A stretch of DNA of 64,000 bases, taken from the NCBI GenBank assembly GCA_021325145.1, contig JAJPHR010000079.1:62001-126000 (forward strand). The letters are read 5' to 3'. Source of the stretch: Verrucomicrobiota bacterium (GTDB lineage: Bacteria > Verrucomicrobiota > Verrucomicrobiia > Limisphaerales > Pedosphaeraceae). Numbering within the stretch: the stretch's first letter is position 1; the number at the start of each line of letters is the position of its first letter. This document shows positions 1,915-43,980 of this stretch, piece by piece. A program made the position numbers and the translations under genes. A model generated the notes under the pieces. The model had not been told where the DNA came from. It ran no database searches and saw only the letters and a program-made list of their open reading frames with translations.

Positions 1915-2571
1915 TTAAGCTGTGATGGCGCTGCCTTCCGCCGGGCCGGTTGGCGCCGCTGGCGGTAAAACTGGTGCCGCTTTCTTCACCACCAGCCCAC
2001 GGCTGCGGTAAATATCTTCGCGCAACCTGAGCTGTTGTAAAGCCTTCAAAGTGGCCTTTACCACGTTGGCCGGGTTTTTGGACCCCAGCGACTTCGTCAG
2101 GATGTCTCTCACCCCGGCGGACTCCAAAACCGCCCGAACGGTCTTGCCCGCGATAATGCCGGTGCCCGGCGAGGCCGGACGCAACAGGACCCTGGCCCCG
2201 TCATAATGCGAAAACACCTCGTGCGGAATCGTCACGTCCTTCAACGAAACTCCCACCATGTGCCCGCGGGCCAGTTCGCCGCCCTTGCGAATGGCGTCGG
2301 CCACTTCGCCCGCCTTGCCCAAACCGATGCCCACGCGCCCGCGCTTGTCGCCCACAACGACCAGCGCGCTGAAATTGAACCGCCGTCCGCCTTTCACCAC
2401 TTTCGCGGAGCGGTTGATGAAAACGACCTTCTCGGTCAGTTCCTGCGAGCCCGATGCGTCCGTCGAGAACTCGCTCGATTCGCCCGGCGGCCGGCCCCGC
2501 CGCCCACGGCCCGGACCACGCCCGCCACGGCCTTCGCCGCCGCCGCCTTCGGTTTTGTTTAGTTCAGCCAC
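1915..2571 (-). CDS. rpsE: 30S ribosomal protein S5, with Gly/Arg-rich N-terminal extension
   Basis: S5 binds 16S rRNA near the decoding and mRNA entry region and affects translational accuracy. The double-stranded-RNA-binding-like S5 domain starts near residue 48 ([18 protein letters not shown]) and the C-terminal domain carries SPGTGIIAG. At 218 residues it is about 50 longer than the usual 165-170. The extra length comes from an N-terminal segment of about 45 residues rich in GRGG/RGRR repeats, and from an Ala/Pro-rich C-terminal tail. The extension is in frame and directly precedes the conserved domain, and no shorter start would give a cleaner protein. The function of the extension is unknown. 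Confidence 0.97.
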
Positions 2572-2601
2572 AATATCAATGAGTTGAGTTTGGTAAATTA
2601 A

Positions 2602-2967
2602 TTAAAATTGGAGCCCGGCTTCGCGGGCCGCATCGGCCAGCGCCTTCACCTTGCCATGATAACGCGCCGTGCCGCGGTCGAAGACCACCTGCTTGATCCC
2701 TTTGCTCTTGGCCGCCTCGGCCGCCAGCGTCCCGATCGCCTTTGCCGAGTTCACGTTCGCCGCCAGTTTCTCCCGGTTCGGCGTTGCCTTGCTCAGCGTC
2801 GAAGCCGCCGCAAGCGTCGCGCCGGCGGTGTCGTCGATGAATTGCACATGAATGTTCTGGTTGCTGAAGCACACGCTCATGCGCGGACGATCCTTCGTTC
2901 CCACCACCTTCTTGCGAATGCGCCAGTGGCGAAGCTGTCCCAGTCTTTGTTTCTTTTCGGTTCTCAT
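2602..2967 (-). CDS. rplR: 50S ribosomal protein L18
   Basis: L18 binds 5S rRNA and joins it to the central protuberance of the large subunit together with L5. The product is 121 residues, the normal length. It has a basic N-terminus (RTEKKQRLGQLRHWRIRKKV), the PRMSVCFSNQNIHVQFIDD segment and the C-terminal VVFDRGTARYHGKVKALADAAREAGLQF block that defines the family. It sits between rplF and rpsE in canonical spc order. Confidence 0.98.
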   Translation of the reverse strand: MRTEKKQRLGQLRHWRIRKKVVGTKDRPRMSVCFSNQNIHVQFIDDTAGATLAAASTLSKATPNREKLAANVNSAKAIGTLAAEAAKSKGIKQVVFDRGTARYHGKVKALADAAREAGLQF

Positions 2968-3011
2968 GTTATGGCGGTCACGGAATGGCCGTAACCAATA
3001 TTTTAAATCTA

Positions 3012-3572
3012 TTACTGAACGGTCTTGCCTTCCTTGCGCACGACCTTCTCGCCTTCGTAGCGCACGCCCTTGCCCTTGTACGGTTCCGGCGGATAGAAGG
3101 CGCGAATTTCCGACGCCACCTTGCCGACCAGGTGCTTGTCCGGGCCTTCAATGGTCAGTGGAGTGGTTTCGACTCCGGCCAGGCTCATCTTTTCCAGCAC
3201 AGTCACTTTGATCTGGTCGGGAATCGGATAAAGCACCGGGTGCGAGTAACCCAGGCTCAGGTTCACCGTCTTGCCCTGCACCGCCGCCTTGAAACCCACC
3301 CCCTGGATACCTAAACGTTTGACGAATCCTTCGCTCACGCCCCGAACCATATTGTTGAGCAACGCGCGGCTCAGGCCGTGCATTGCCTTCGCCTCGGCAT
3401 CGTCGCCATCGCGGCTCACCACCACTTTGTCGCCTTCGACCTTGACGCTGGTCCGCCGGTTCAGTTCCAAGTCCAGTTTGCCCTTGGGGCCTTCAACCAA
3501 TACTTTACGGCCGTTCACATTCACCTTCACCTTCGGCGGAATGAGAATCGGTTGTTTTCCAATGCGTGACAT
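3012..3572 (-). CDS. rplF: 50S ribosomal protein L6
   Basis: L6 is a large-subunit protein near the factor-binding site, built of two similar alpha/beta domains. The 186-residue product starts with MSRIGKQPI and has the second-domain rRNA-binding signature PEPYKGKGVRYEGE near the C-terminus, which is intact. Length and position (after rpsH, before rplR) are canonical. Confidence 0.98.
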   Translation of the reverse strand: MSRIGKQPILIPPKVKVNVNGRKVLVEGPKGKLDLELNRRTSVKVEGDKVVVSRDGDDAEAKAMHGLSRALLNNMVRGVSEGFVKRLGIQGVGFKAAVQGKTVNLSLGYSHPVLYPIPDQIKVTVLEKMSLAGVETTPLTIEGPDKHLVGKVASEIRAFYPPEPYKGKGVRYEGEKVVRKEGKTVQ

Positions 3573-32604: not shown

Positions 32605-32633
32605 TGTCACCGTTTCGCAACTGGTCGCATCTA
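32605..32633 (+). promoter_or_regulatory. Candidate ECF-type promoter before the sigma factor gene
   Basis: TGTCACC (32,605-32,611), followed after 11 nt by GGTCGCATCTA (32,623-32,633), lies about 40 nt before the ATG at 32,670. This layout resembles autoregulated promoters of ECF sigma genes. It is a weak call, based on one site. The remaining sequence from 32,356 holds a GC-rich imperfect hairpin near 32,360-32,400 and no convincing gene. Confidence 0.3.
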
Positions 32634-32669
32634 CTTGATAGCTGCTAATGTTGTTTGCGGCGACCGAAA

Positions 32670-35282
32670 ATGAATACTCAAAGGCTTGAACACGATGCGC
32701 GAAGCCAGTCGGTACCAGACGCGGAACTAGCGCGCGCGGCCCAGCGTGGTGACAAGCGAGCATTCGTTGAGATCGTGGCACGGCACCAGGCCATGGTATG
32801 TGGAATCGCTTTGGGAATCCTGGCTGACTTCGCCGCGAGCGAGGACGTTGGCCAGGAGGCGTTTTTAACCGCTTGGCGTAAAATTCATGAATTAAGGGAA
32901 CCAGCCCGGCTGAGGGCATGGCTTGCTCAAATTGCGCGCAATGCCGCTTTGGGGCACCGTCGCTCAAGCAAACCGCATGATCCGCTGGATGAAGGACTCG
33001 AACTCTCAGATGGGTCTCCCACTCCAAGTGAGGCAGCCGCCACCGAGGAGGAAGCCATGTTGGTTCGCCAGTCGCTTGCCAAGCTGCCCGAGGGCTATCG
33101 CTTGCCGCTGGTCCTCTATTATACCGAAGGACAGTCAGTCCGGGCTGTGGCGGAGACGCTTGGCATCAGTGAAGACGCGGTAAAGCAGCGCCTCGCCCGC
33201 GGCCGGGAAATGTGCCGCGACCGGATTTCTGGCCTGATTGAAACCGTGCTGACGCACAAACGGCCGACCGCAATTCTCACTATGACTATAGCTGCGGCGA
33301 TTGGCGCACTGACAGCCCCTGCCGCTGTCGCGGCGACAGTTTTCGCCTCGAGCGCCGCCGCCAGCACGTCTGCCACCACCTCCGCCATCAAAACATTTTT
33401 GGCCACCGTTATGAGCTCCTCCAAAGGTTTCTTGATCGCTACGGCCATTGTCGCCGTCCTTTGTATTCCGATTGGTTATCAATTAAACACTTCGAGTGTC
33501 GTGCCCGTTGCGAAACTGCCCCCGGTGCCGGATGCGACACCGGCCTTGCCAACCAATCCACCCGCGAGCTTTGAAAGCAGCGCGCTGTTCGCGGAGTGGC
33601 GCGCGTTGCACGAACAATATGGAACCAACGCCCAGGCCATGCCCCTGCTGTATAAAGCCGTCAAGGACCTCAAGGATTCATTTCATCGCAAGGCACTGGG
33701 CGCGGCGTTGAGGACGGAATGGGCGCAGGTCGATCCGGCGGGTGGGTTGTCATTTTTTCTTTCGCCCGGCCACGGCAATGACGAGCGCCAGCAATTCTTC
33801 CGGGAATGGCTTTCCATTGACCCGCATGCGGCGGTCACGGGTCTCATGGGCTCGGGTGCAGAGTGGCTGGGGCTGGCGCATGATTGTCTGGGCGACATTG
33901 CTCATGCCGTGCCGGATCAAATCCCCGCCATTGTCTCACAATTACCCAAGGCGGAAAGCTTTTGGGATTACACCGTGCGCGATGCCTTTGCGGTTCTGGC
34001 CCAAGGCGGCATGGAGTCCGCGCGTCTCGCGGCGGAAAGTATCAGCGGTCCAAATCGCGACCAGGCGCTGGCTGGTGTTGCGAAGGCTTGGGGCCGGACT
34101 GATTTGAATGCGGCCATTAACTGGGCCAAAGGCTTGCCCGACGGCGCGGACCGGGATGAGATAATCCGCAATGCGTTGGTTGGAAAAGCCGGCGTGGACC
34201 CGGCCGCCGCACTGGACAATGTGAATCTCGTTCCCGAGGGTGGTCAGCAGATGTATTTTGCCAGCACCACGGGCGCGCGGGTTTTGAGTCAGGCCGCACA
34301 AACCGATTTCGATGCGACCGTCGCTTGGCTTTCAAGCCATCCAGGCCGGGTTGGCAACGAGGATTTAATGGGTCTGGCTGACCCCGTCACGAGCAGGCTC
34401 AACGCCGATCCCGCAGGCTTCCTGACGGCTCATGCGAACGACGGTTCCTTGAAGGTCTTACAGCCGGCCATCGGCAGCGCGTTGCTAAACGGTTCGGCCG
34501 GCGAACGCGGGGCGGTTTGGGATTGGCTCCAGAATCAGCCGGAAAGTGAGGAGGTTAAATCTTTGAAGACGCAGGTGTTGAACTCGGCGGCCTGGCAAGA
34601 CCCAATGTTGGCATTGAAGTTGGGCGGCAGTCTGCCAGACACGGCCGACGGCAACAAGGCAGTCCAGGATCTTGCGCGTACGATTTTCAACGGCGGCAGC
34701 ATGTTGGGACGGGTTGACCAGATGCTTGCCAACGCGCCGGACCGCATGCAAACCCCGTTGGTAGAGTCCGCCTTCAGCTTGCTCAGTTCCGACAACTTGA
34801 TTGACCCTCAGCCGTGGATTTCCAAACTGCAACTTTTACCGGAAGCGGACCGCGCCAAGGGCGTCGAGTCATTGGCAAAAGCTTGGGCCACTCAATCACC
34901 TGGCGACGCCGTTGCGTGGGCTGGCACGTTGCCAACCGCCGAAACGCAAAAGGCGGCCGCTGCAGGCATCGTTAACGGGTGGGCCACCAAGGACGCGCTG
35001 GGGGCAGCCGACTGGGTTTCTGCCATGCCTGCCGGGCCGGGCCGCGACCAAAGCACCGAAGCGCTGGTCATCGCCGCCGCGAACCAATATCCGCAACAAG
35101 CCTGGCAATGGGCCTTGAGCATAACCGACACCACCGAACGCGATCGTGCGGCCACGCAAGTAGTTCAAACCATGGCGGCGCGTGATCCGGCCACCGTACG
35201 CCAATGGATTGATTCCGGGCCATTCACAATGGACGTAAAACAGAAACTTTACTCCGCACTGCAAAATCCGGGGGCTCATTGA
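32670..35282 (+). CDS. ECF sigma factor fused to a membrane anchor and W-A helical-repeat domain
   Basis: The product is 870 residues (ATG at 32,670; a TTG five codons earlier is less likely). Residues about 20-75 are sigma region 2 (ELARAAQRGDKRAFVEIVARHQAMV...ASEDVGQEAFLTAWRKI) and about 138-185 are region 4 (LAKLPEGYRLPLVLYYTEGQSVRAVAETLGISEDAVKQRLARGREM). Two hydrophobic segments follow: AILTMTIAAAIGALTAPAAVAATVFA (about 200-226) and GFLIATAIVAVLCIPIGYQL (about 253-273). The remaining 590 residues are alpha-helical repeats of about 35-40 residues with the pattern WA..DP..A..W...LP......R..A, clearest at about 735-850. The layout predicts a sigma factor tethered to the membrane, with its repeats beyond it. 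No separate anti-sigma gene is adjacent. The next gene overlaps by 4 nt. Confidence 0.88.
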   Translation: MNTQRLEHDARSQSVPDAELARAAQRGDKRAFVEIVARHQAMVCGIALGILADFAASEDVGQEAFLTAWRKIHELREPARLRAWLAQIARNAALGHRRSSKPHDPLDEGLELSDGSPTPSEAAATEEEAMLVRQSLAKLPEGYRLPLVLYYTEGQSVRAVAETLGISEDAVKQRLARGREMCRDRISGLIETVLTHKRPTAILTMTIAAAIGALTAPAAVAATVFASSAAASTSATTSAIKTFLATVMSSSKGFLIATAIVAVLCIPIGYQLNTSSVVPVAKLPPVPDATPALPTNPPASFESSALFAEWRALHEQYGTNAQAMPLLYKAVKDLKDSFHRKALGAALRTEWAQVDPAGGLSFFLSPGHGNDERQQFFREWLSIDPHAAVTGLMGSGAEWLGLAHDCLGDIAHAVPDQIPAIVSQLPKAESFWDYTVRDAFAVLAQGGMESARLAAESISGPNRDQALAGVAKAWGRTDLNAAINWAKGLPDGADRDEIIRNALVGKAGVDPAAALDNVNLVPEGGQQMYFASTTGARVLSQAAQTDFDATVAWLSSHPGRVGNEDLMGLADPVTSRLNADPAGFLTAHANDGSLKVLQPAIGSALLNGSAGERGAVWDWLQNQPESEEVKSLKTQVLNSAAWQDPMLALKLGGSLPDTADGNKAVQDLARTIFNGGSMLGRVDQMLANAPDRMQTPLVESAFSLLSSDNLIDPQPWISKLQLLPEADRAKGVESLAKAWATQSPGDAVAWAGTLPTAETQKAAAAGIVNGWATKDALGAADWVSAMPAGPGRDQSTEALVIAAANQYPQQAWQWALSITDTTERDRAATQVVQTMAARDPATVRQWIDSGPFTMDVKQKLYSALQNPGAH

Positions 35283-36970
35283 ATTCTCCAGTAACAACCA
35301 GAGCACGTCGCATGAGAATAATTTCCAATCTGCGTGTGGTGGTGGTTTCAGCGATCATCGGCATCGGCACGGGATATGCCTTGAAATCCCACCACGTCTC
35401 TAATGCCCAAAGCAGCGTTGGGGAACCAATCGTCCACGCTCAAGCAACGTCCTCTACCGCCAGATCAAAAGGCAAAAGTGCTGGTTCGCAACCCGACGAT
35501 TCTCCACTAACCTCCCAATTGTCGCGTGATTTGTCCAGGTCGTCCCCACTGGATAAATGGTTTTATTGGATGAAGGCCCTGGAAAGCGCGCAGCCCGGAG
35601 ATTTTCCCCGTCTCGCCAGGCTCGCGCGCAATAATCCGGCCATCTGGCGTCTTGTGGTGAGTTGTTGGGTGGAGATGGCTCCGCGTCATCTCTTCGATAC
35701 GCTCGTATCCATTTCCAAATATGGTGGCGATCTGCCGGTCGACGAATTGGGACGCGCACTTTTTGATTCATGGCCAAAGCAAGATCCTGAAGCGGCAATC
35801 GCGGCCCTGAACACTACGGAAAACCTGGGCATGCGAGATATGTGGCGCATCCAAGTGGCCACCGCCGTGACGGACAATAATGCTGAACGCGGGCTGGAAT
35901 TGTTCTCGCAATGGCATCTGGAAAACATTGGCCCACGAATGGATGCCATCGATGCTTGGGCAGCGGCCGACCCGCAGCACGCCGCGGAATTTACTTTGGC
36001 CCACCCGAGCGGTTTTGTCTCGCAATCCGCCATGGACTCCATCGGCAAGATGTGGGCCAAAGCCGACCCGGAGGCGGCGCTGAAGTTTGCGATTTCGCAA
36101 CCGGGCGATCTCAGCTCCAGGCTCGCAACTACGGTCGTGAAAGAATGGGCGGGACAAAATCTCGAAGCGGCATCGGATTGGATTGCCGGCACAGATGACC
36201 GCATCCGCAATCGTCTCAGTCCCGCTCTCGTGGAAGCCTGGGCCGGCAAGGACGCGACTGATGCGTTGTCGTGGAGCTTGGATAATCTCCACGGGGCGCA
36301 GCTTGTCCAAGCCGTCACCAGCGTGATGAATGGTGCGGCGGCAAAGAATCCGGATGCGGCGGCGGCGATGGTGGCCGGGATGGAACCCTCACAGGCGCGT
36401 GCTGAAGCGGCCGGTGTCGTCGCCCAAAAATTGTTTCCTGCCTTTGGCTCATCGGATCCCGTAAAACCCGAAACTCTCTCCTGGTTGACCGGATTGGATG
36501 CACAATCCGTTAAACGGGTGATTGATCAAGTGTCATGGTCTTGGGCGAGAGCAGATTCAAGCAGCATGGCGAAGTTTCTCGCTTTAGCTCCCAATGACGA
36601 GGTGCCGGCGTATGCCGATTCCATTTTGGCACGGCAAATGGTGCGAACAACGCCCGTCGCGGCGTTGGATTGGGCTGCAACACTGCCGGAGGCTCGCGGC
36701 CTGACGGCGGGGGCGGCTGCCTTTGCGGAATGGCAGCAATCGCAACCCGACGCCGCGATGCAATGGATGGGCAACCTTCCAGCGACGGATCCGCGTCGTC
36801 AGCCGTTTTTCGAAAGCATGGTTCATTCGCTGGCGTATTCAGCCCAAGGCGCAGAACAGCTCTCGGCAATGTCCGCGGCAGATCAGGTGGCGGCGCAGAG
36901 CGTGATCGCTAAGATGTCACTTCCGGAGAACACGCGCGCTCGACTCCTGGATTCCCTGAAGCCTCGATGA
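35279..36970 (+). CDS. Membrane-anchored W-A helical-repeat protein
   Basis: The product is 563 residues from a TTG start that overlaps the sigma gene stop (TTGA); an ATG eleven codons on (35,312) is the alternative. A basic N-terminus (RARRMR) precedes one transmembrane segment (VVVVSAIIGIGTGYAL, about residues 19-35). A linker is followed by about a dozen helical repeats of the same type as those in the upstream sigma protein (for example SIGKMWAKADPEAALKFAISQPG, VKEWAGQNLEAASDWIAG, LVEAWAGKDATDALSWSLDN, AALDWAATLPEARGL). There is no enzymatic motif. The shared repeats and overlap suggest that the two proteins interact or sense the same thing; this is inference. Confidence 0.8.
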   Translation: MNSPVTTRARRMRIISNLRVVVVSAIIGIGTGYALKSHHVSNAQSSVGEPIVHAQATSSTARSKGKSAGSQPDDSPLTSQLSRDLSRSSPLDKWFYWMKALESAQPGDFPRLARLARNNPAIWRLVVSCWVEMAPRHLFDTLVSISKYGGDLPVDELGRALFDSWPKQDPEAAIAALNTTENLGMRDMWRIQVATAVTDNNAERGLELFSQWHLENIGPRMDAIDAWAAADPQHAAEFTLAHPSGFVSQSAMDSIGKMWAKADPEAALKFAISQPGDLSSRLATTVVKEWAGQNLEAASDWIAGTDDRIRNRLSPALVEAWAGKDATDALSWSLDNLHGAQLVQAVTSVMNGAAAKNPDAAAAMVAGMEPSQARAEAAGVVAQKLFPAFGSSDPVKPETLSWLTGLDAQSVKRVIDQVSWSWARADSSSMAKFLALAPNDEVPAYADSILARQMVRTTPVAALDWAATLPEARGLTAGAAAFAEWQQSQPDAAMQWMGNLPATDPRRQPFFESMVHSLAYSAQGAEQLSAMSAADQVAAQSVIAKMSLPENTRARLLDSLKPR

Positions 36971-37035
36971 AATTCCATCCCTTTTGCTGGCGCAAATTTC
37001 CTCGATCTTTTCCAAATGAAAAACGTTTAACAAAT

Positions 37036-37794
37036 ATGACACATGCAATTCCCAGCCGTACCAAATGCATTCGCGGGTTCACCTTGGTGGAATTATTGGT
37101 GGTAATGGCGATCATTGCCATTTTGGCAGGGTTGGTTTTAACGACGTTGGGGCGCGCAAAGAATTCCGCCAGCAAGGTGACCGACATCAACAATCTCAGG
37201 CAGATCATGATCGCGGTTCACGCCTTTGCTTCGGATAACAATGACATCCCACCGCAACCGAACTGGGACAATGGCGGTCACATAGGCGGTTACGGGGATT
37301 TTACGAATGCGGGCTGGCTTTATACGCCGGACTTGACTGCTACCGGCACGAATCGATTCAAAGCGCAAACCGGAGTCCTGTGGTCCTCCTTGGGCAATCC
37401 CAAGTTGTATCTGTGTCCCATGGACAAGCCCGAAAAAGCGGTGTACTCCGCCCATGACGGGCAGGTGGAGCAGCGGGCACAACAACTGTCCAGCTACGCG
37501 ATGAACGGCGCCGTGGTCGGTTTCATGAAAATACTTCCCACACCGGTCAAACTGTCGAGCTTGCAACCGGACGATTGCGCGTTCTGGGAAACCGACGAGA
37601 CCGAGCCGTATTATTTCAATGATGGTGCCAATAATCCCGGCGAAGGCGTCAGCGCGCGGCATTTGCAGGGTGCCATCCAGGCTTCCTTCAGTGGCACAGT
37701 TGACTACGTCAAGTTCGACAAATGGTATGAGGCCGAGTCTGATCCCAAAAAGAACCGGCTGTGGTGTTATCCCGACAGCGACAATGGCCGGTGA
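37036..37794 (+). CDS. Type II secretion/type IV pilus-like pseudopilin
   Basis: The N-terminus has a prepilin peptidase site: IRG, then FTLVELLVVMAIIAILAGLVLTTLG, cleaved between Gly and Phe, with the conserved Glu at +5. The body (about 250 residues) has the CPMDKPEKAVYSAHDG and FWETDETEPYYFNDGANNPGEGVSARHLQGA pattern common to verrucomicrobial pseudopilins. I use MTHAIPSRTK (252 residues); an ATG at 36,967 overlaps the previous stop (ATGA) and would give a 36-residue leader, so translation may be coupled. Many such pseudopilin genes occur per verrucomicrobial genome and most lack known substrates. Here it lies in the sigma/repeat operon. Confidence 0.88.
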   Translation: MTHAIPSRTKCIRGFTLVELLVVMAIIAILAGLVLTTLGRAKNSASKVTDINNLRQIMIAVHAFASDNNDIPPQPNWDNGGHIGGYGDFTNAGWLYTPDLTATGTNRFKAQTGVLWSSLGNPKLYLCPMDKPEKAVYSAHDGQVEQRAQQLSSYAMNGAVVGFMKILPTPVKLSSLQPDDCAFWETDETEPYYFNDGANNPGEGVSARHLQGAIQASFSGTVDYVKFDKWYEAESDPKKNRLWCYPDSDNGR

Positions 37795-37819
37795 ACGGGC
37801 GAACCACCTCAAAAAAGAA

Positions 37820-39094
37820 ATGGTGAAGAATAAAAGTCTATTCTGGACGGTGGTTTCAGTTTTAGTCCTCGGGGTGGCATGCGGGTTGTATATGTGGCTA
37901 TGGAGGCCACAAACCATAGTTTTGGCCGACGGCAGCCGTTTGACCCTTCTTGGCGTTACGTACGGCAAGCACCATGCTTTCAAGACCAAAGATGATAAAG
38001 GCCGGACGATTCGAGGGCACCCGCTGGATACGACGAATAATTCGATTTGCGTCTGGGTGAAACAAAAACACAAACCGAATAGTACGCCGCAATATCAATT
38101 GCGAGCGTATGATGCCGCCAACACCTCCTGCGCCAGCAGCTCCGGTATCACCATTGGCAATGGGCCGCTTTGGAGCGAGGCCGAACTTGCCGGCATTTTA
38201 ATCGAGGCGTTTCCTCGGCGTGGCTGGAGGGTTCATATCCGTGCTCAGGCATGGTCTCAGCAAACCGGAATGCCGGAACAGAGCAAGGGAGAATTTGTCA
38301 TCCCAAATCCTGCCCGGCGCGAGCGTTTTCCCGCCTGGGTGTCTTCAGCGCTTCCCGATACACAGCCGGCTGACGATCTGGACGTTACACTGACCCGTTT
38401 GGACCGCAGCGTGGATTTGAACAATTCCGGAGCCGTGCGAACAAAATCCGGCGATCTCAGTAATAAGGCGGTCCTGGCGATATTTCACACCGAACAGAAC
38501 GGCAGCGCCATCACCAATTGGCAGCCGGTTCAAATCGAAACCACCGATGCGACCGGCAACCGCACGGTAAACTTTGTTTGGAGCACTGCGTTAGAAAATG
38601 GCGACAATTCGGTAAACTACCAGTGGGGACTTTGGCCCGACGAACCCGCCTGGAAATTACGCGTGGAGATGTCGCGCTCGTCCGGTTTTAACCGTGATGA
38701 GATATGGTCGCCTTCGGGCCTTTCCCTTACTCCGGGTGATATCAATGACCTTTGGCGTAACGACAGGAAAATGCAGCCGATTGCTGAAACCACGATCGAT
38801 GACCACCACATACAATTGTTCCCGATCATTCAAATCGCGCCGGATCAAGTCCATCAGACGGGTGACATAGAAGCAGTTTTTCGAATCCATTTAGACCCTT
38901 CACCGGAAGGCATGCGACTGACTATCATAAAAATAACGGACGAACGAAACCAACCTGTTGAATTCCAGAACTGGGGATGGGGCGGCGGCGATTATCGCTT
39001 TGGCCTTAAAAAGATGGGCAACACAAGGACAATCAACCTCACCCTGGCGCTGCACCACAGCCGCTATGTGGAATTTACGGCCAAACCGAAATGA
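37820..39094 (+). CDS. Membrane-anchored protein of unknown function
   Basis: The product is 425 residues from MVKNKSLFWTV; an in-frame ATG at 37,784 would add twelve residues and overlap the pseudopilin gene. A single N-terminal membrane helix (LFWTVVSVLVLGVACGLYMWLW) leaves about 400 residues outside. The exterior part starts with a beta-strand segment TIVLADGSRLTLLGVTYGKHH, seen in other verrucomicrobial proteins with the same anchor layout, and continues as mixed beta (WGLWPDEPAWKLRVEMSR; FPIIQIAPDQVHQTGD). No catalytic motif is seen. It is the last gene of the four-gene set. Confidence 0.72.
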   Translation: MVKNKSLFWTVVSVLVLGVACGLYMWLWRPQTIVLADGSRLTLLGVTYGKHHAFKTKDDKGRTIRGHPLDTTNNSICVWVKQKHKPNSTPQYQLRAYDAANTSCASSSGITIGNGPLWSEAELAGILIEAFPRRGWRVHIRAQAWSQQTGMPEQSKGEFVIPNPARRERFPAWVSSALPDTQPADDLDVTLTRLDRSVDLNNSGAVRTKSGDLSNKAVLAIFHTEQNGSAITNWQPVQIETTDATGNRTVNFVWSTALENGDNSVNYQWGLWPDEPAWKLRVEMSRSSGFNRDEIWSPSGLSLTPGDINDLWRNDRKMQPIAETTIDDHHIQLFPIIQIAPDQVHQTGDIEAVFRIHLDPSPEGMRLTIIKITDERNQPVEFQNWGWGGGDYRFGLKKMGNTRTINLTLALHHSRYVEFTAKPK

Positions 39095-39393: not shown

Positions 39394-40758
39394 TCAATCC
39401 ATTCCAAACCGCTTGCGCATCCGGTAAAGTGTCGCCCGATCAATCCCCAAAATTTCGGAAGCCTCGGTCATGCCCGGTGTGCGCTCCAGGACCTTGCGCA
39501 AATGCAATTCCTCGATCTTTTGCATGGTAATCGCCGAACCGATTTGCTGTTGGCCATCGCTGGCAATTGTTCCGGCAGTTGGTAAACCGCGCAGTTCCGC
39601 AGGCAAATCCTCGGCCACGAGTTCGTTGCCCCGGGCCAGGATGACTGCGCGTTCAATCGCATTGCGCAGTTCGCGAAGGTTGCCAGGCCATGGATAGGCC
39701 GCAATGCAAGCCATCGCTTCCTTGGAAAAGCCTTTGAGACGGCGGCCACACTGGGCGGCAAAATATTTGAGATAGTGCTCGGCAAAGCGAAGCAGATCGT
39801 CCTGTCGCTCGCGCAACGGGGGCATCACCACGGTGATGACGTTCAAACGAAAATAGAGATCTTCCCGAAAGGCACCTTCGGCCAGGCTCTTTTTTAAGTC
39901 GCGATTCGTGGCGGCGATGACGCGCATATCAGCGTGGCGCGTGATGTTTTCCCCCACCCGCTCGTATTCGCGTTCCTGCAATAGACGAAGCAGCTTGGGT
40001 TGAATATCCATCGGCAGGTCGCCAATTTCGTCCAGAAAGAGAGTTCCACCCGCGGCGGCTTTGACCTTGCCCCAATGGTCCTTAACCGCCCCGGTAAATG
40101 ATCCTTTGGCGTGGCCGAATAACGCGCTTTCCAGCAATTCCTTGGACAGGCTGGCGCAGCTCACGGTCACGAAGGGCTTGTCTGATAGCGGGCTTTGCTG
40201 ATGAACGGCACGGGCGGCGATGCTTTTGCCGGTGCCGTTTTCACCGCAGATGAGAATGGAGGCCGACGTCTTGGCGGCTCGCAGTAACACATCCATTACC
40301 TCGCGCATGGCCGGCGTGGTGAATTCGAGAATCGGATCGACGCTCTGTGCCTTGCTCTCCTGGACTTCCTGTTCCAGCCGCTCAATGTTCTGGCTTAATT
40401 GATGAAAACGTTGCACGCGGGCGAGTACGAGGTGGAACTGTTCCCGCGTGAATGGCTTTTCCAGGAAGTCCATGGCGCCCCGCCGCATGGCGTCCACCGC
40501 GGTTTTTACATTGCCTTGCGCCGTGAACATGACCACCGGCAAACGGGGCTGGTCCTTGAGGATTTGCTCGAGGAGATCAAGGCCGTTCTCCTCGCGCAGA
40601 TGAAGATCCAGCAATACCGCATTAAATTCTCCCGCCCTTAACGAGGCCAGAGCCACTTCACCACAATCCGCGCCTTCCGCATAATTACCGGTGCCGTCGA
40701 TCATCAGGCAGGTCGCATCCCGGAATATTTTGTTGTCGTCAATGACCAAAAAGTTCAT
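39394..40758 (-). CDS. Sigma-54-dependent response regulator (NtrC family)
   Basis: The product is 454 residues. The receiver domain (residues 1-120) has the acidic pair VIDDN and the phospho-acceptor Asp in AVLLDLHL, with VMFTA and the KP lysine (LEKPF). The AAA+ domain has Walker A GENGTGKS (about 172), the sigma-54-contact loop GSFTGA in place of GAFTGA, Walker B GGTLFLDEIG, and the arginine-finger region. The C-terminal Fis-type helix-turn-helix ends TEASEILGIDRATLYRMRKRFGMD. It activates sigma-54 promoters by remodelling the closed complex. It is the third gene of an operon with two kinases, 12 nt after the second. Confidence 0.95.
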   Translation of the reverse strand: MNFLVIDDNKIFRDATCLMIDGTGNYAEGADCGEVALASLRAGEFNAVLLDLHLREENGLDLLEQILKDQPRLPVVMFTAQGNVKTAVDAMRRGAMDFLEKPFTREQFHLVLARVQRFHQLSQNIERLEQEVQESKAQSVDPILEFTTPAMREVMDVLLRAAKTSASILICGENGTGKSIAARAVHQQSPLSDKPFVTVSCASLSKELLESALFGHAKGSFTGAVKDHWGKVKAAAGGTLFLDEIGDLPMDIQPKLLRLLQEREYERVGENITRHADMRVIAATNRDLKKSLAEGAFREDLYFRLNVITVVMPPLRERQDDLLRFAEHYLKYFAAQCGRRLKGFSKEAMACIAAYPWPGNLRELRNAIERAVILARGNELVAEDLPAELRGLPTAGTIASDGQQQIGSAITMQKIEELHLRKVLERTPGMTEASEILGIDRATLYRMRKRFGMD

Positions 40759-40770
40759 GGGTAATTCAAT

Positions 40771-41886
40771 TCAGGGTTGGAGAACGGCTCGCGGGAAACG
40801 AATGCAAAAAGCAGCCCCATTGCCAGCCGTGCTTTCGCACGCCAATTCCCCACCCATCGCGTCCATCAGCTTCTTGACGATGCTCAGGCCAAGACCAGCG
40901 GAGGATTCACCGCCCGTAGGCCGCGCAGAAAGCCGCCCGTAACGGCGGAACATCCGGCTCTTATCTTCCACCGTGAAGCCCGCCCCTTGATCCCGCACGA
41001 GACATTCGACGTAGTCCTTAGCCGGGCGGATGGCGACCGAGATCTGCTTTCCGAGTGGCGAAAACTTCACCGCGTTGGAGAGGAGATTTTCGAGCACCTG
41101 GCTCAGCGCGCTGGAATCAGCCTGCACCAGGGAGTCTTCATCGGGGAGCGACGTCTGCATCGACAGGTTCTTCCGTCCGGCCGCCTCGCGAAATTGCCGG
41201 ATGGCACGCGAGGCTGCATCCGCGAGACTGACGGGTTCCAGCTTTATATGCATTTGATGGTGGGCCGAAGAGTTCGCCAAAAACTCGTTCACAAAAGAGA
41301 GCATCTGGCCGCTCGAATTGGAGATATTCTCAACCAATAGCCGCTGTTTGGGATCGTCCTGCAACCCGTTGCGATCACGGAGCAACTCGGCGCTCATGTT
41401 CATGCCGCCCAGGTGGTTCTTCAAATCATGCGTGAGAATGCCCAGCAATTCATCCTTGTCTTCCGCGAGCTGTTTCAAATCGTCACGGGCGATTTTTAGG
41501 GCCAGGTGCGTGCGGATTCGAGAAATCAGTTCGGCATGGTTAAAAGGCTTGGTGATGTAATCCACCCCTCCGGTTTCGAGCGCTCGAACAATTAGGTCTT
41601 TGTCATCCGCCGACGAGAGGAAGATGATGGGGATGCCCACCCAGGCGGGATTTTCTCTGATTCGCTCGCAAACCTTGAAGCCATCCATGTCGGGCATTAA
41701 GAGGTCGAGCAGAATCAGATCCGGGTGGCAGTTCGCCAGCCGTCCCAGGGCCTGGGCTCCGCTTGTGGCCGGAATAATTTCAAAACCGAGTTTGCCCAGA
41801 GTCGCGCCAATGATCTGGATGTTGGTTTCCTGATCGTCCACGACCAGGAGGCACCCGGTGGTTGCTCCGGAGATGGGGACAGTCAT
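40771..41886 (-). CDS. REC-histidine kinase (soluble hybrid)
   Basis: The start at 41,886 (MTVPISGATTG, 371 residues) is supported by AAGGA five bases upstream, inside the end of the previous gene. Residues about 10-125 are a receiver domain (LLVVDDQETN; LILLDLLMPDMDG; FLSSADD; ITKPF). A short coiled linker leads to HisKA (LAEDKDELLGILTHDLKNHLGGMNMSAELL) and HATPase_c (NLLSNAVKFSP, VRDQGAGF, GLGLSIVKKLMDAMGG). There is no membrane segment. A receiver ahead of a kinase suggests a middle step in a phosphorelay between the hybrid kinase upstream and the NtrC regulator downstream; that order is inferred. Confidence 0.93.
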   Translation of the reverse strand: MTVPISGATTGCLLVVDDQETNIQIIGATLGKLGFEIIPATSGAQALGRLANCHPDLILLDLLMPDMDGFKVCERIRENPAWVGIPIIFLSSADDKDLIVRALETGGVDYITKPFNHAELISRIRTHLALKIARDDLKQLAEDKDELLGILTHDLKNHLGGMNMSAELLRDRNGLQDDPKQRLLVENISNSSGQMLSFVNEFLANSSAHHQMHIKLEPVSLADAASRAIRQFREAAGRKNLSMQTSLPDEDSLVQADSSALSQVLENLLSNAVKFSPLGKQISVAIRPAKDYVECLVRDQGAGFTVEDKSRMFRRYGRLSARPTGGESSAGLGLSIVKKLMDAMGGELACESTAGNGAAFCIRFPRAVLQP

Positions 41887-41893
41887 TGGTTCC

Positions 41894-43675
41894 TTACGCA
41901 TGGACGGTCTGGGCCGAAGAAGCTTCGATGGATAGAAGCAGCTCGGGAAACAAGGCGAGTTGCCGTTCCAAGTCCCCAATGGCGTAGGCATCGGCAAAGG
42001 TCACGAGCGCTGCCGCATAATTTGTGAGCGGCCCGCATTCCGCCTTGTGGCCGAGTGTGAACAGCTTGTGCGCAAACACCCTCGCTTTATTGACGGCCGG
42101 GGTCTGGTGCAGTGAAGACCATTCGCTGTTCAGCAGCCGCCGCAATTCGATCGCGAGGGCCCGCCAGTCATCCGCCTGGCCGAGCGACGGAAGCGGAATG
42201 GCTGAGGTTTCTTCATCGAGATTCCCCGGCTTCAGCAAATCCTTCTGCGGCACTCGCTGGAGGAATTGCGCCAGGGTCACAAACAGCGTTTGTCTGGAGA
42301 ATGGTTTGCGAATGTAGCCGCTGAACTTCGCTTTCAACTCAGCGTCTTCGCTGGACAAGCTTGAAGCGGTCACCGCAATGACAGGCAGCGAGACCAGGTC
42401 CGCTCGCTTGCGGATCTCAGCGAGCGTTGCGCGGCCGTCCATCACCGGCATTCGGATGTCCAACAACACCAGATCCGCTCTGAACTTGTCCAGGCTCTCC
42501 AAGGCTTCCTTGCCGCTGCCGACAAGACGGACCACATGATGAGTTTTCTCAAACATGCCGGCCATCAAATCCCGATTGGTCTCGTTATCATCCACAACCA
42601 ATAGCATGGCCGGCGCAAAGTCATTAAAGTCCACTGCTCCCCCGGGTTCGGCATGATCCCCTACCGGCAGTCGCACCGAAATGGGAACATCTGCGAACCG
42701 GAGATGAAAGACGGTGCCTTTGCCCACTGTGCTTTCGACGGTGAGCGTGCCTTTCATAATCTGGGTCAGCCGCTTCGCGATGGTCAACCCGATGCCGGTG
42801 CCTTGCTTCTCTGCGATTCGGCTGGAGTCCGCCTGGACGAACGGCTTGAATACCTCCTCCAGTTTATTGGGAGGAATGCCGATTCCCGTGTCCTCCACGT
42901 CGATCACCAGAATCCCGTTTCGGCCTTCCGCCTCCTTTTGCCACGAGACCCTCACCTTGACCCAGCCCTGGTCGGTGAATTTTATGGCGTTCCCCAGGAG
43001 ATTCATCAGCACTTGCCTAAGTCGGAGGCGATCCACCAACAGCGCGCGGGGCAAATCAGGTGACAGATCGAATTGCAATTGGAGGGATTTCTTCAGGGCC
43101 TGCTGGGCGAAAACCGTCCGAAGAAATTCACAGGAATCCCGCATGTCCGTGGGATCGGGGTGCAATTCCAGCCGGCCAGCTTCGAGCTTGGACAGGTCGA
43201 GGATATCGTTGATCAACTGCAATAGCGATGCGCCACTGTCCCGAATAGCGCGGACGTACTGGGATTGCCTGGGCGTGAGGCCTTCCGGCTCCAACAGCTC
43301 GCTGAAGCCAAGAATCGCGTTCATCGGGCTGCGAATCTCGTGGCTCATATTCGCCAGGAATGCGCTCTTCTCCTTGACGGCCTCTTCCGCTACCAGTTTA
43401 TCCTCCAGCAATTCGCGTTGCTCTCCCTCCTTGCGATAGCCGATCCGCGAAAGGTAGATCGAGAACAGGCCCGCACCAACGCCCAGCAGGCCGGCGATCA
43501 AGGTCAATTCATGCAGCCGCTCCACTTCCCGGTGTGCGGGCGCTTCCGAGGACGCGCCAATCCCATTGGAGAAACGGTTCCAGACCACCATTCCCATCAC
43601 CAGGCTGGCCAAAGTAATGGCCAGCCAAAAGATGATCAATGGCCCAACAATCCGACGCCGAAATTGGTAAGTCAT
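41894..43675 (-). CDS. Membrane hybrid histidine kinase with REC and C-terminal phosphotransfer-like domain
   Basis: The start MTYQFRRRIVGPLIIF (593 residues) has a GGGGAAG purine run just upstream; longer frames add a Gly/Ala-rich stretch without support. Two membrane helices (about 10-32 and 58-75) flank only about 25 residues, so there is no periplasmic sensor of any size. HisKA (FLANMSHEIRSPMNAILGFSELL), HATPase_c (NLLGNAIKFTD, DTGIGIPPNKL, GTGIGLTIAKRL) and a receiver (MLLVVDDNETNRDLMAG; LVLLDIRMPVMDG; RKPFSRQ) follow. The last 80 residues resemble the helical tails of hybrid kinases, but the usual Hpt His-Gly pattern is not clear (FAHKLFTLGHKAECGPL). The stop overlaps the longer of the next gene's possible starts. 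Confidence 0.93.
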   Translation of the reverse strand: MTYQFRRRIVGPLIIFWLAITLASLVMGMVVWNRFSNGIGASSEAPAHREVERLHELTLIAGLLGVGAGLFSIYLSRIGYRKEGEQRELLEDKLVAEEAVKEKSAFLANMSHEIRSPMNAILGFSELLEPEGLTPRQSQYVRAIRDSGASLLQLINDILDLSKLEAGRLELHPDPTDMRDSCEFLRTVFAQQALKKSLQLQFDLSPDLPRALLVDRLRLRQVLMNLLGNAIKFTDQGWVKVRVSWQKEAEGRNGILVIDVEDTGIGIPPNKLEEVFKPFVQADSSRIAEKQGTGIGLTIAKRLTQIMKGTLTVESTVGKGTVFHLRFADVPISVRLPVGDHAEPGGAVDFNDFAPAMLLVVDDNETNRDLMAGMFEKTHHVVRLVGSGKEALESLDKFRADLVLLDIRMPVMDGRATLAEIRKRADLVSLPVIAVTASSLSSEDAELKAKFSGYIRKPFSRQTLFVTLAQFLQRVPQKDLLKPGNLDEETSAIPLPSLGQADDWRALAIELRRLLNSEWSSLHQTPAVNKARVFAHKLFTLGHKAECGPLTNYAAALVTFADAYAIGDLERQLALFPELLLSIEASSAQTVHA

Positions 43676-43980
43676 GCGCTTCCCCGCCTCGCCACCGGGC
43701 GCGCCTGCGCGTCCGGCCAATGAAGGAGAGATCAGCATATCATGCTTGGGCCATAACGCATAACAATTCTTCCGCATGTAGCAGCTTGGATAGTGCCAAC
43801 GGCACGCTCGCGGTTGTTATCTATTCAATCACAGCTACTTACGCTGGTTGAGATTGAATTTCACGTGGCTTTGGAAGCGGGAAGGATGTTGCAAGCTGCA
43901 CCGGAAACCTATCCTCATGGTGCGTTTTGCCCCGGCGTACCAATGCTTGCGGCGCGTAGGCACAAAGTCCGCCATCGCGC
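43676..43980. other. Gap upstream of the hybrid kinase, no gene identified
   Basis: This 305-nt region lies between the end of the MlaD-like gene and the kinase start. I see no RNA gene, no strong palindrome and no convincing promoter. The kinase-frame extension here lacks the character of coding sequence. Confidence 0.4.

Follow-up and report, generated by a model that had tools for sequence, protein, structure and literature searches.

The analysis of a 64,000-nucleotide (nt) stretch of a Verrucomicrobiota bacterium of the family Pedosphaeraceae (GenBank assembly GCA_021325145.1, contig JAJPHR010000079.1, positions 62,001 to 126,000; hereafter the window) revealed a gene (gene 1) in which an extracytoplasmic function (ECF) sigma factor, hydrophobic segments and a long alpha-solenoid made of repeats with a W-A motif are fused, followed by a partner (gene 2) encoding an anchored protein with the same repeats and no sigma domain. 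We consider it fairly probable that they form a one-protein transmembrane switch, composed of a membrane-held ECF sigma factor and an extracytoplasmic solenoid as receptor part, with a co-encoded sigma-less twin. Together with its probable promoter and twin, the sigma fusion looks like a self-contained receptor carrying its own gene switch. The features directly observed are the domain order, the conservation of the gene pair, the presence of a promoter-like element and a fusion architecture extending to a whole family. Normally, the sigma factor and a distinct anti-sigma protein share the transmembrane control of ECF factors; in the present case, a single protein apparently unites receptor and sigma factor, and it exists in many versions in one genome, with varied outer domains and often with sigma-less twins.

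The sigma factor fusion and its repeat-bearing partner

According to a Pfam scan, both sigma regions of gene 1 are confined to its first 182 residues, with the layout of ECF factors, i.e. sigma-70 regions 2 and 4 without regions 1 and 3 (Table 1). The protein reached 87 bits with the general ECF model TIGR02937 (cut-off 42.9) and its best relatives of solved structure are ECF factors; it stayed below the curated cut-off of TIGR02989, the Rhodopirellula/Verrucomicrobium sigma family (84.2 vs 124.55 bits). No further domain exceeded its Pfam cut-off beyond region 4, and no anti-sigma domain was found by Pfam among the scanned neighbour proteins. The original prediction, made from the sequence alone, had described sigma regions 2 and 4, two hydrophobic segments and a long repeat extension within one protein, and the lack of an adjacent anti-sigma gene; the Pfam, hydrophobicity and repeat analyses agree with the former and the Pfam search of the neighbours with the latter.

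The self-similarity of the repeats peaks at 31-32 residues, and the W-A motif occurs 4 times in gene 1 and 5 times in gene 2 (0.37 and 0.39 in shuffles). Weakly related by plain BLASTP (E 0.001), the two repeat domains are homologous by profile comparison (hhalign 98.9%, E 2.6e-17), which, with the motif counts, bears out the proposal that the partner is an anchored protein of the same repeats. Structure prediction, suggested at that stage for both repeat proteins, gave helical solenoids of good confidence: AlphaFold2 modelled the gene 1 repeat domain as all-helical, mostly with local confidence (pLDDT) of 75-93, and gene 2 as a helical solenoid with a mean pLDDT of 82. Neither a named Pfam repeat family, such as those of the HEAT, ARM, TPR and PPR alpha-solenoids, nor a solved relative of the W-A solenoid was seen by sequence, gene 2 had no Pfam match of any kind, and fold searches retrieved generic alpha-solenoids only, mostly eukaryotic, with Z up to 10.

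Two gene starts had to be revised. The partner had been placed inside the stop of gene 1 (TTGA), and this TTG at 35279 was rejected because the starts of orthologous partners align with the ATG at 35312. Similarly, a possible start of gene 3 had been seen at the ATGA in the stop of gene 2 (ATG 36967), and the ATG at 37036 was retained because a 41% identical pseudopilin, overlapping the end of another sigma fusion of contig C31, has a similarly short leader. This leaves intergenic gaps of 29, 65 and 25 nt, and no stop overlaps the next gene.

Table 1. Features of the four-gene operon (positions in the window)
Feature	Position	Strand	Details
Promoter-like element TGTCACC-N15-GCATC (ECF-type -35/-10), proposed autoregulated operon promoter	32605..32631	+	exact in 6/7 loci
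Gene 1, ECF sigma factor-hydrophobic segments-alpha-solenoid fusion	32670..35282	+	ATG start, 870 aa
Sigma-70 region 2 (gene 1 residues 36-100)	32775..32969	+	PF04542, E 5.9e-14
Sigma-70 region 4 (gene 1 residues 131-182)	33060..33215	+	PF08281, E 7.2e-13
Hydrophobic segment 1 (gene 1 residues 200-224), marginal; interfacial, hairpin or true transmembrane	33267..33341	+	estimated dG 1.1
Hydrophobic segment 2 (gene 1 residues 253-269), likely single transmembrane, N-in/C-out	33426..33476	+	estimated dG -0.01
Alpha-solenoid of W-A repeats (gene 1 residues 301-870, ~570), predicted extracytoplasmic	33570..35279	+	AlphaFold2, period 31-32
Gene 2, partner: N-terminal anchor and W-A alpha-solenoid, without sigma domain	35312..36970	+	552 aa
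Gene 3, pseudopilin-like protein	37036..37794	+	252 aa; PF07963 prepilin motif, E 1.7e-8
Gene 4, anchored protein of widespread family	37820..39094	+	424 aa

Conservation of the gene pair and of a promoter-like element

The fusion was searched for in 146 genomes of the order, in a scan of named genomes and in a sample of the phylum. Among the 146 genomes, it was present in the source genome and in two others, from different families; the named-genome scan retrieved the same two loci and three new ones, and the phylum sample one further, more distant locus (26% identical over the length), from a different family within the class. Identity among the orthologues of gene 1 is 26-54% over their full length. 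The partner is the next gene after the fusion at all six other loci (L103, L104, L105, L106, L107 and L110), which comprise four intact fusions, one frame-split and one broken; where the fusion is intact, the partner lies within 43 nt downstream of its stop or overlaps it. The fusion of L106 is split by a frame change, and that of L107 (7898-9203) bears a large internal deletion and a stop, next to an intact partner and a kept promoter-like element; both kinds of damage may be assembly faults or decay. The L107 record is labelled Akkermansia muciniphila, which may be wrong. Genes 3 and 4 are not the third and fourth genes at any of these six loci, so the conserved unit is the pair of fusion and partner, the four-gene arrangement being local. 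A conserved set of four genes was accordingly rejected, contrary to the gene order anticipated across other Verrucomicrobia, and the second repeat protein was supported as the constant companion of the fusion.

Being always the next gene, gene 2 sits where anti-sigma genes usually do and might act on the fusion as a classical anti-sigma factor. Its membrane helix is preceded by no more than about 6-8 residues and the remainder is solenoid, and gene 2 consequently has no cytoplasmic anti-sigma domain; the empty Pfam result also argues against such a function, which we regard as very unlikely.

The W-A repeats extend beyond these pairs. A match to the domain at E 1e-12 was obtained in 19/146 genomes of the order, source genome included, and the order contains widely distributed stand-alone, anchored proteins with W-A repeats, about 700-900 aa long (L085-L101). 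A third protein with W-A repeats (about 930-990 aa; L046 13560-16358, contig C19) is located roughly 10 kb from a tethered ECF fusion directly followed by a pseudopilin.

The element TGTCACC-N15-GCATC is common to five orthologues within 250 nt ahead of the fusion (8 shared two-block elements observed, 0 in 200 shuffle sets). Its exact form was found in the window and at L103, L104, L105, L106 and L107, and at no other fetched locus save duplicates of these, L110 retaining TGTCACC without GCATC. At L103, it overlaps the open frame of the fusion itself where this extends upstream of the likely start, which it precedes by about 20 nt. Five genomes contain 2, 2, 2, 1 and 1 exact copies; the sole copy immediately preceding a gene start is the one ahead of the fusion, and the others fall inside genes. 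Since the only exact gene-upstream site is that of the operon itself, the main target of the sigma factor is probably its own operon, and autoregulation with a very small regulon, by way of a presumed recognition of the element by the gene 1 sigma domain, is the simplest reading. A broad regulon was rejected, as exact matches elsewhere are within genes and one-mismatch sites are mostly within genes and form no coherent set; the wide surface programme initially envisaged is not borne out by these five genomes. No housekeeping-type promoter or terminator exceeded the shuffles in the region.

Membrane topology and proposed mechanism

All fusion orthologues have two hydrophobic segments, with comparable insertion energies in most according to a rough home-made estimate (dG). 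This would suit a protein in which both segments are true transmembrane helices and both the sigma domain and the repeats are cytoplasmic, the solenoid serving inside the cell as a scaffold or inhibitor by which the sigma factor is retained at the membrane. The dG of segment 1 varies from 0.4 to 4.3 across orthologues, being better than that of segment 2 at L104 and very poor at L110 (4.3 vs 1.9 for segment 2). All fusion orthologues also keep the Lys of M-[ST]-[ST]-S-K directly ahead of segment 2, and the same repeats sit after one N-terminal anchor, which would place them outside, in gene 2 and in nearly all stand-alone repeat proteins of the order. Because segment 2 is the better helix, the lysine is conserved and the related repeat proteins are single-anchored, gene 1 probably adopts an N-in/C-out topology with the W-A repeats outside the membrane, and an entirely cytoplasmic arrangement is improbable. 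Of the two segments originally taken as membrane spans, the second thus appears sound and the first marginal, and the extracytoplasmic location proposed for the repeats is supported as probable.

In the proposed switch, the ECF sigma factor would be kept at the inner membrane by the anchor it carries, and the solenoids of genes 1 and 2 would pair or share a ligand in the periplasm, so that the sigma domain stays inactive on its tether. Its release, most likely through regulated intramembrane proteolysis of the RseP type, would follow a change in the envelope, either a ligand or the state of a pseudopilus or secretion machinery. The freed sigma domain would then read TGTCACC-N15-GCATC ahead of its own gene and amplify mainly its own operon in a positive feedback, which in the source genome a pseudopilin and an anchored protein have joined.

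Several points weigh against this switch. Promoter recognition, membrane insertion, cleavage and solenoid pairing are all inferred, and the RseP homologue detected over its cut-off lends weak support, as RseP-type proteases are widespread. If segment 1 were a true transmembrane helix, the repeats would be cytoplasmic. No recognisable anti-sigma domain was found in the extension of gene 1 by Pfam scan at E up to 1. Lastly, the AlphaFold2 model of the sigma and membrane part, built on an alignment of four sequences only, has a pLDDT <50, so that contacts between sigma domain and extension are unreadable from it.

An extension devoted to localisation only, which would tie the transcription of envelope genes to the membrane without sensing or release, would agree with the lack of a defined sensor domain and with a predicted target limited to the own operon, encoding membrane proteins. 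The ectodomains of the paralogues described below are nevertheless diverse while the sigma-anchor part is kept, as expected for receptors with different inputs, making pure localisation quite improbable in our view.

Among described systems, the switch most resembles IutY of Pseudomonas putida (group ECF243), an ECF sigma factor bearing a membrane-bound regulatory extension at its C-terminus; cleavage of this fused extension by Prc and RseP activates IutY, the only one of the compared cases for which proteolytic release is shown (PMC8999054). The extension of IutY is a fused membrane-bound anti-sigma factor serving iron cell-surface signalling, whereas gene 1, without a recognisable anti-sigma domain, has an outer alpha-solenoid and a sigma-less twin gene. 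Proteolytic release is proposed for ECF48, ECF52 and ECF53, e.g. SCO4117 of Streptomyces coelicolor, whose C-terminal extension has one or two transmembrane helices (PMC8999054). Unlike gene 1, where the Pfam scan found no zinc finger, these groups are actinobacterial and have a zinc-finger anti-sigma-like domain. ECF41 factors also have a large C-terminal extension, with a single-transcript regulon (carboxymuconolactone decarboxylase, oxidoreductase or epimerase genes) and the promoter TGTCACA-N16-CGTC (PMC3426412). The promoter-like element of the window is shaped like this promoter, with a similar -35 and a different -10; the ECF41 extension differs in not being a membrane anchor with repeats, and the predicted target here is the own operon. 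No ECF41-type SnoaL C-terminal domain was matched by Pfam after region 4 of gene 1. In the related phylum of the planctomycetes, ECF01-Gob factors have a long C-terminal extension with predicted transmembrane segments, and its domains appear to be of other kinds than those of gene 1. In literature of partial coverage, which left key ECF classification papers outside, nothing was found on verrucomicrobial tethered ECFs, on a link between ECFs and pseudopilins, on the W-A repeat or on sigma-less twins. Tethered ECFs with proteolytic release being known in principle, the repeat solenoid and twin pair are best read as a new form of membrane-tethered ECF sigma factor.

A family of tethered ECF factors and its link to pseudopilins

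The source genome encodes about 15 further proteins combining an ECF sigma factor, a hydrophobic AP-containing region, a membrane segment and differing outer domains, and its relatives up to 33 such fusions. These paralogues keep the sigma-anchor part but vary widely in their outer domains, some of which are coiled-coil types and one of which matches secretin weakly. The fusion of L118 is followed by a sigma-less copy of its own ectodomain, 59% identical and starting exactly at the membrane segment, and sigma-less copies of the own anchor and outer domain also follow the fusions of L161, L111, L148, L188, L041, L044, L123 and L129, the coiled-coil cases being weaker evidence. Since several fusions precede such copies, the pair of the window is one instance of a recurring arrangement involving unrelated outer domains. 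The closest paralogues of gene 1 by their sigma domains, L036 (C105) and L037 (C27), have polytopic C-terminal parts. Next to each, downstream and in the same orientation, lies a gene for an anchored protein (273-282 aa), and these two proteins are 46% identical (304-1947 and 2457-3278 for fusion and anchored protein at L037).

Gene 3 is of the prepilin type, as originally proposed, on the evidence of PF07963; only prepilin N-terminal motif models exceed their cut-offs, that of GspG, the major pseudopilin of Type II secretion, remaining below (30.8 vs 88.85 bits). Gene 4, which lacks W-A repeats, is a member of a family found in 36/146 genomes of the order, usually stand-alone and without sigma or pseudopilin neighbours. 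A tandem pair of gene-4-like anchored proteins was also seen at L221 (G131:C298, 1001-3725).

The rarity of this arrangement, with pseudopilin and gene 4 absent at the other loci and gene 4 usually alone, could mean that the operon link to the pseudopilin is accidental in the source genome. Across the family, however, a prepilin motif on the same strand within 500 nt follows 11 of the 91 tethered ECF fusions with enough downstream sequence and 4/404 of the other genes of the same loci (P 3.4e-6, an optimistic value because the 91 fusions include related copies and are not all independent; the motif pattern misses some pseudopilins). On C31, moreover, the sigma fusion whose end is overlapped by the gene 3 homologue has an ectodomain related to gene 4 by profile comparison (hhalign 98.5%, E 2e-15). 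An accidental link consequently seems rather unlikely, and the association of tethered ECFs with pseudopilins that had been predicted for this locus holds family-wide. Given the C31 fusion, with its gene-4-like outer domain and gene-3-like pseudopilin, genes 3 and 4 are reminiscent of pieces of another tethered-ECF module lying downstream of the pair, a transfer not being demonstrable.

In C69 and two relatives, the outer domain has two short blocks resembling pseudopilin globular domains by profile comparison, a suggestive likeness only, and gene 3 had no BLASTP match to the C69 fusion. The outer domains of the L041 (4948-5322), L133 and L161 fusions share two short blocks, of the LAF-xx-AND and FADGHVE types, with pseudopilin globular domains.

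We tentatively suggest that Verrucomicrobia might possess a whole class of receptor sigma factors, in which the sigma factor forms the cytoplasmic domain of a membrane receptor, with exchangeable outer domains derived in part from pseudopilin and envelope proteins; these would signal by pairing with co-encoded sigma-less copies of the outer domain, and several would monitor pseudopilus-type machinery. If true, this would rank as a major signalling mode, next to two-component systems and sigma/anti-sigma pairs, in view of the number of fusions per genome. The association is also an initial clue to what some of the pseudopilins so abundant in these bacteria (84 prepilin motifs in the source genome) may do or be sensed by. 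With its conserved pair, promoter element and small predicted regulon, the system is testable in a heterologous host using two genes and one reporter.

Downstream of the operon and convergent with it, the minus strand carries at 39394-43777 a sigma-54-type response regulator gene beside two histidine kinase/response regulator open reading frames.

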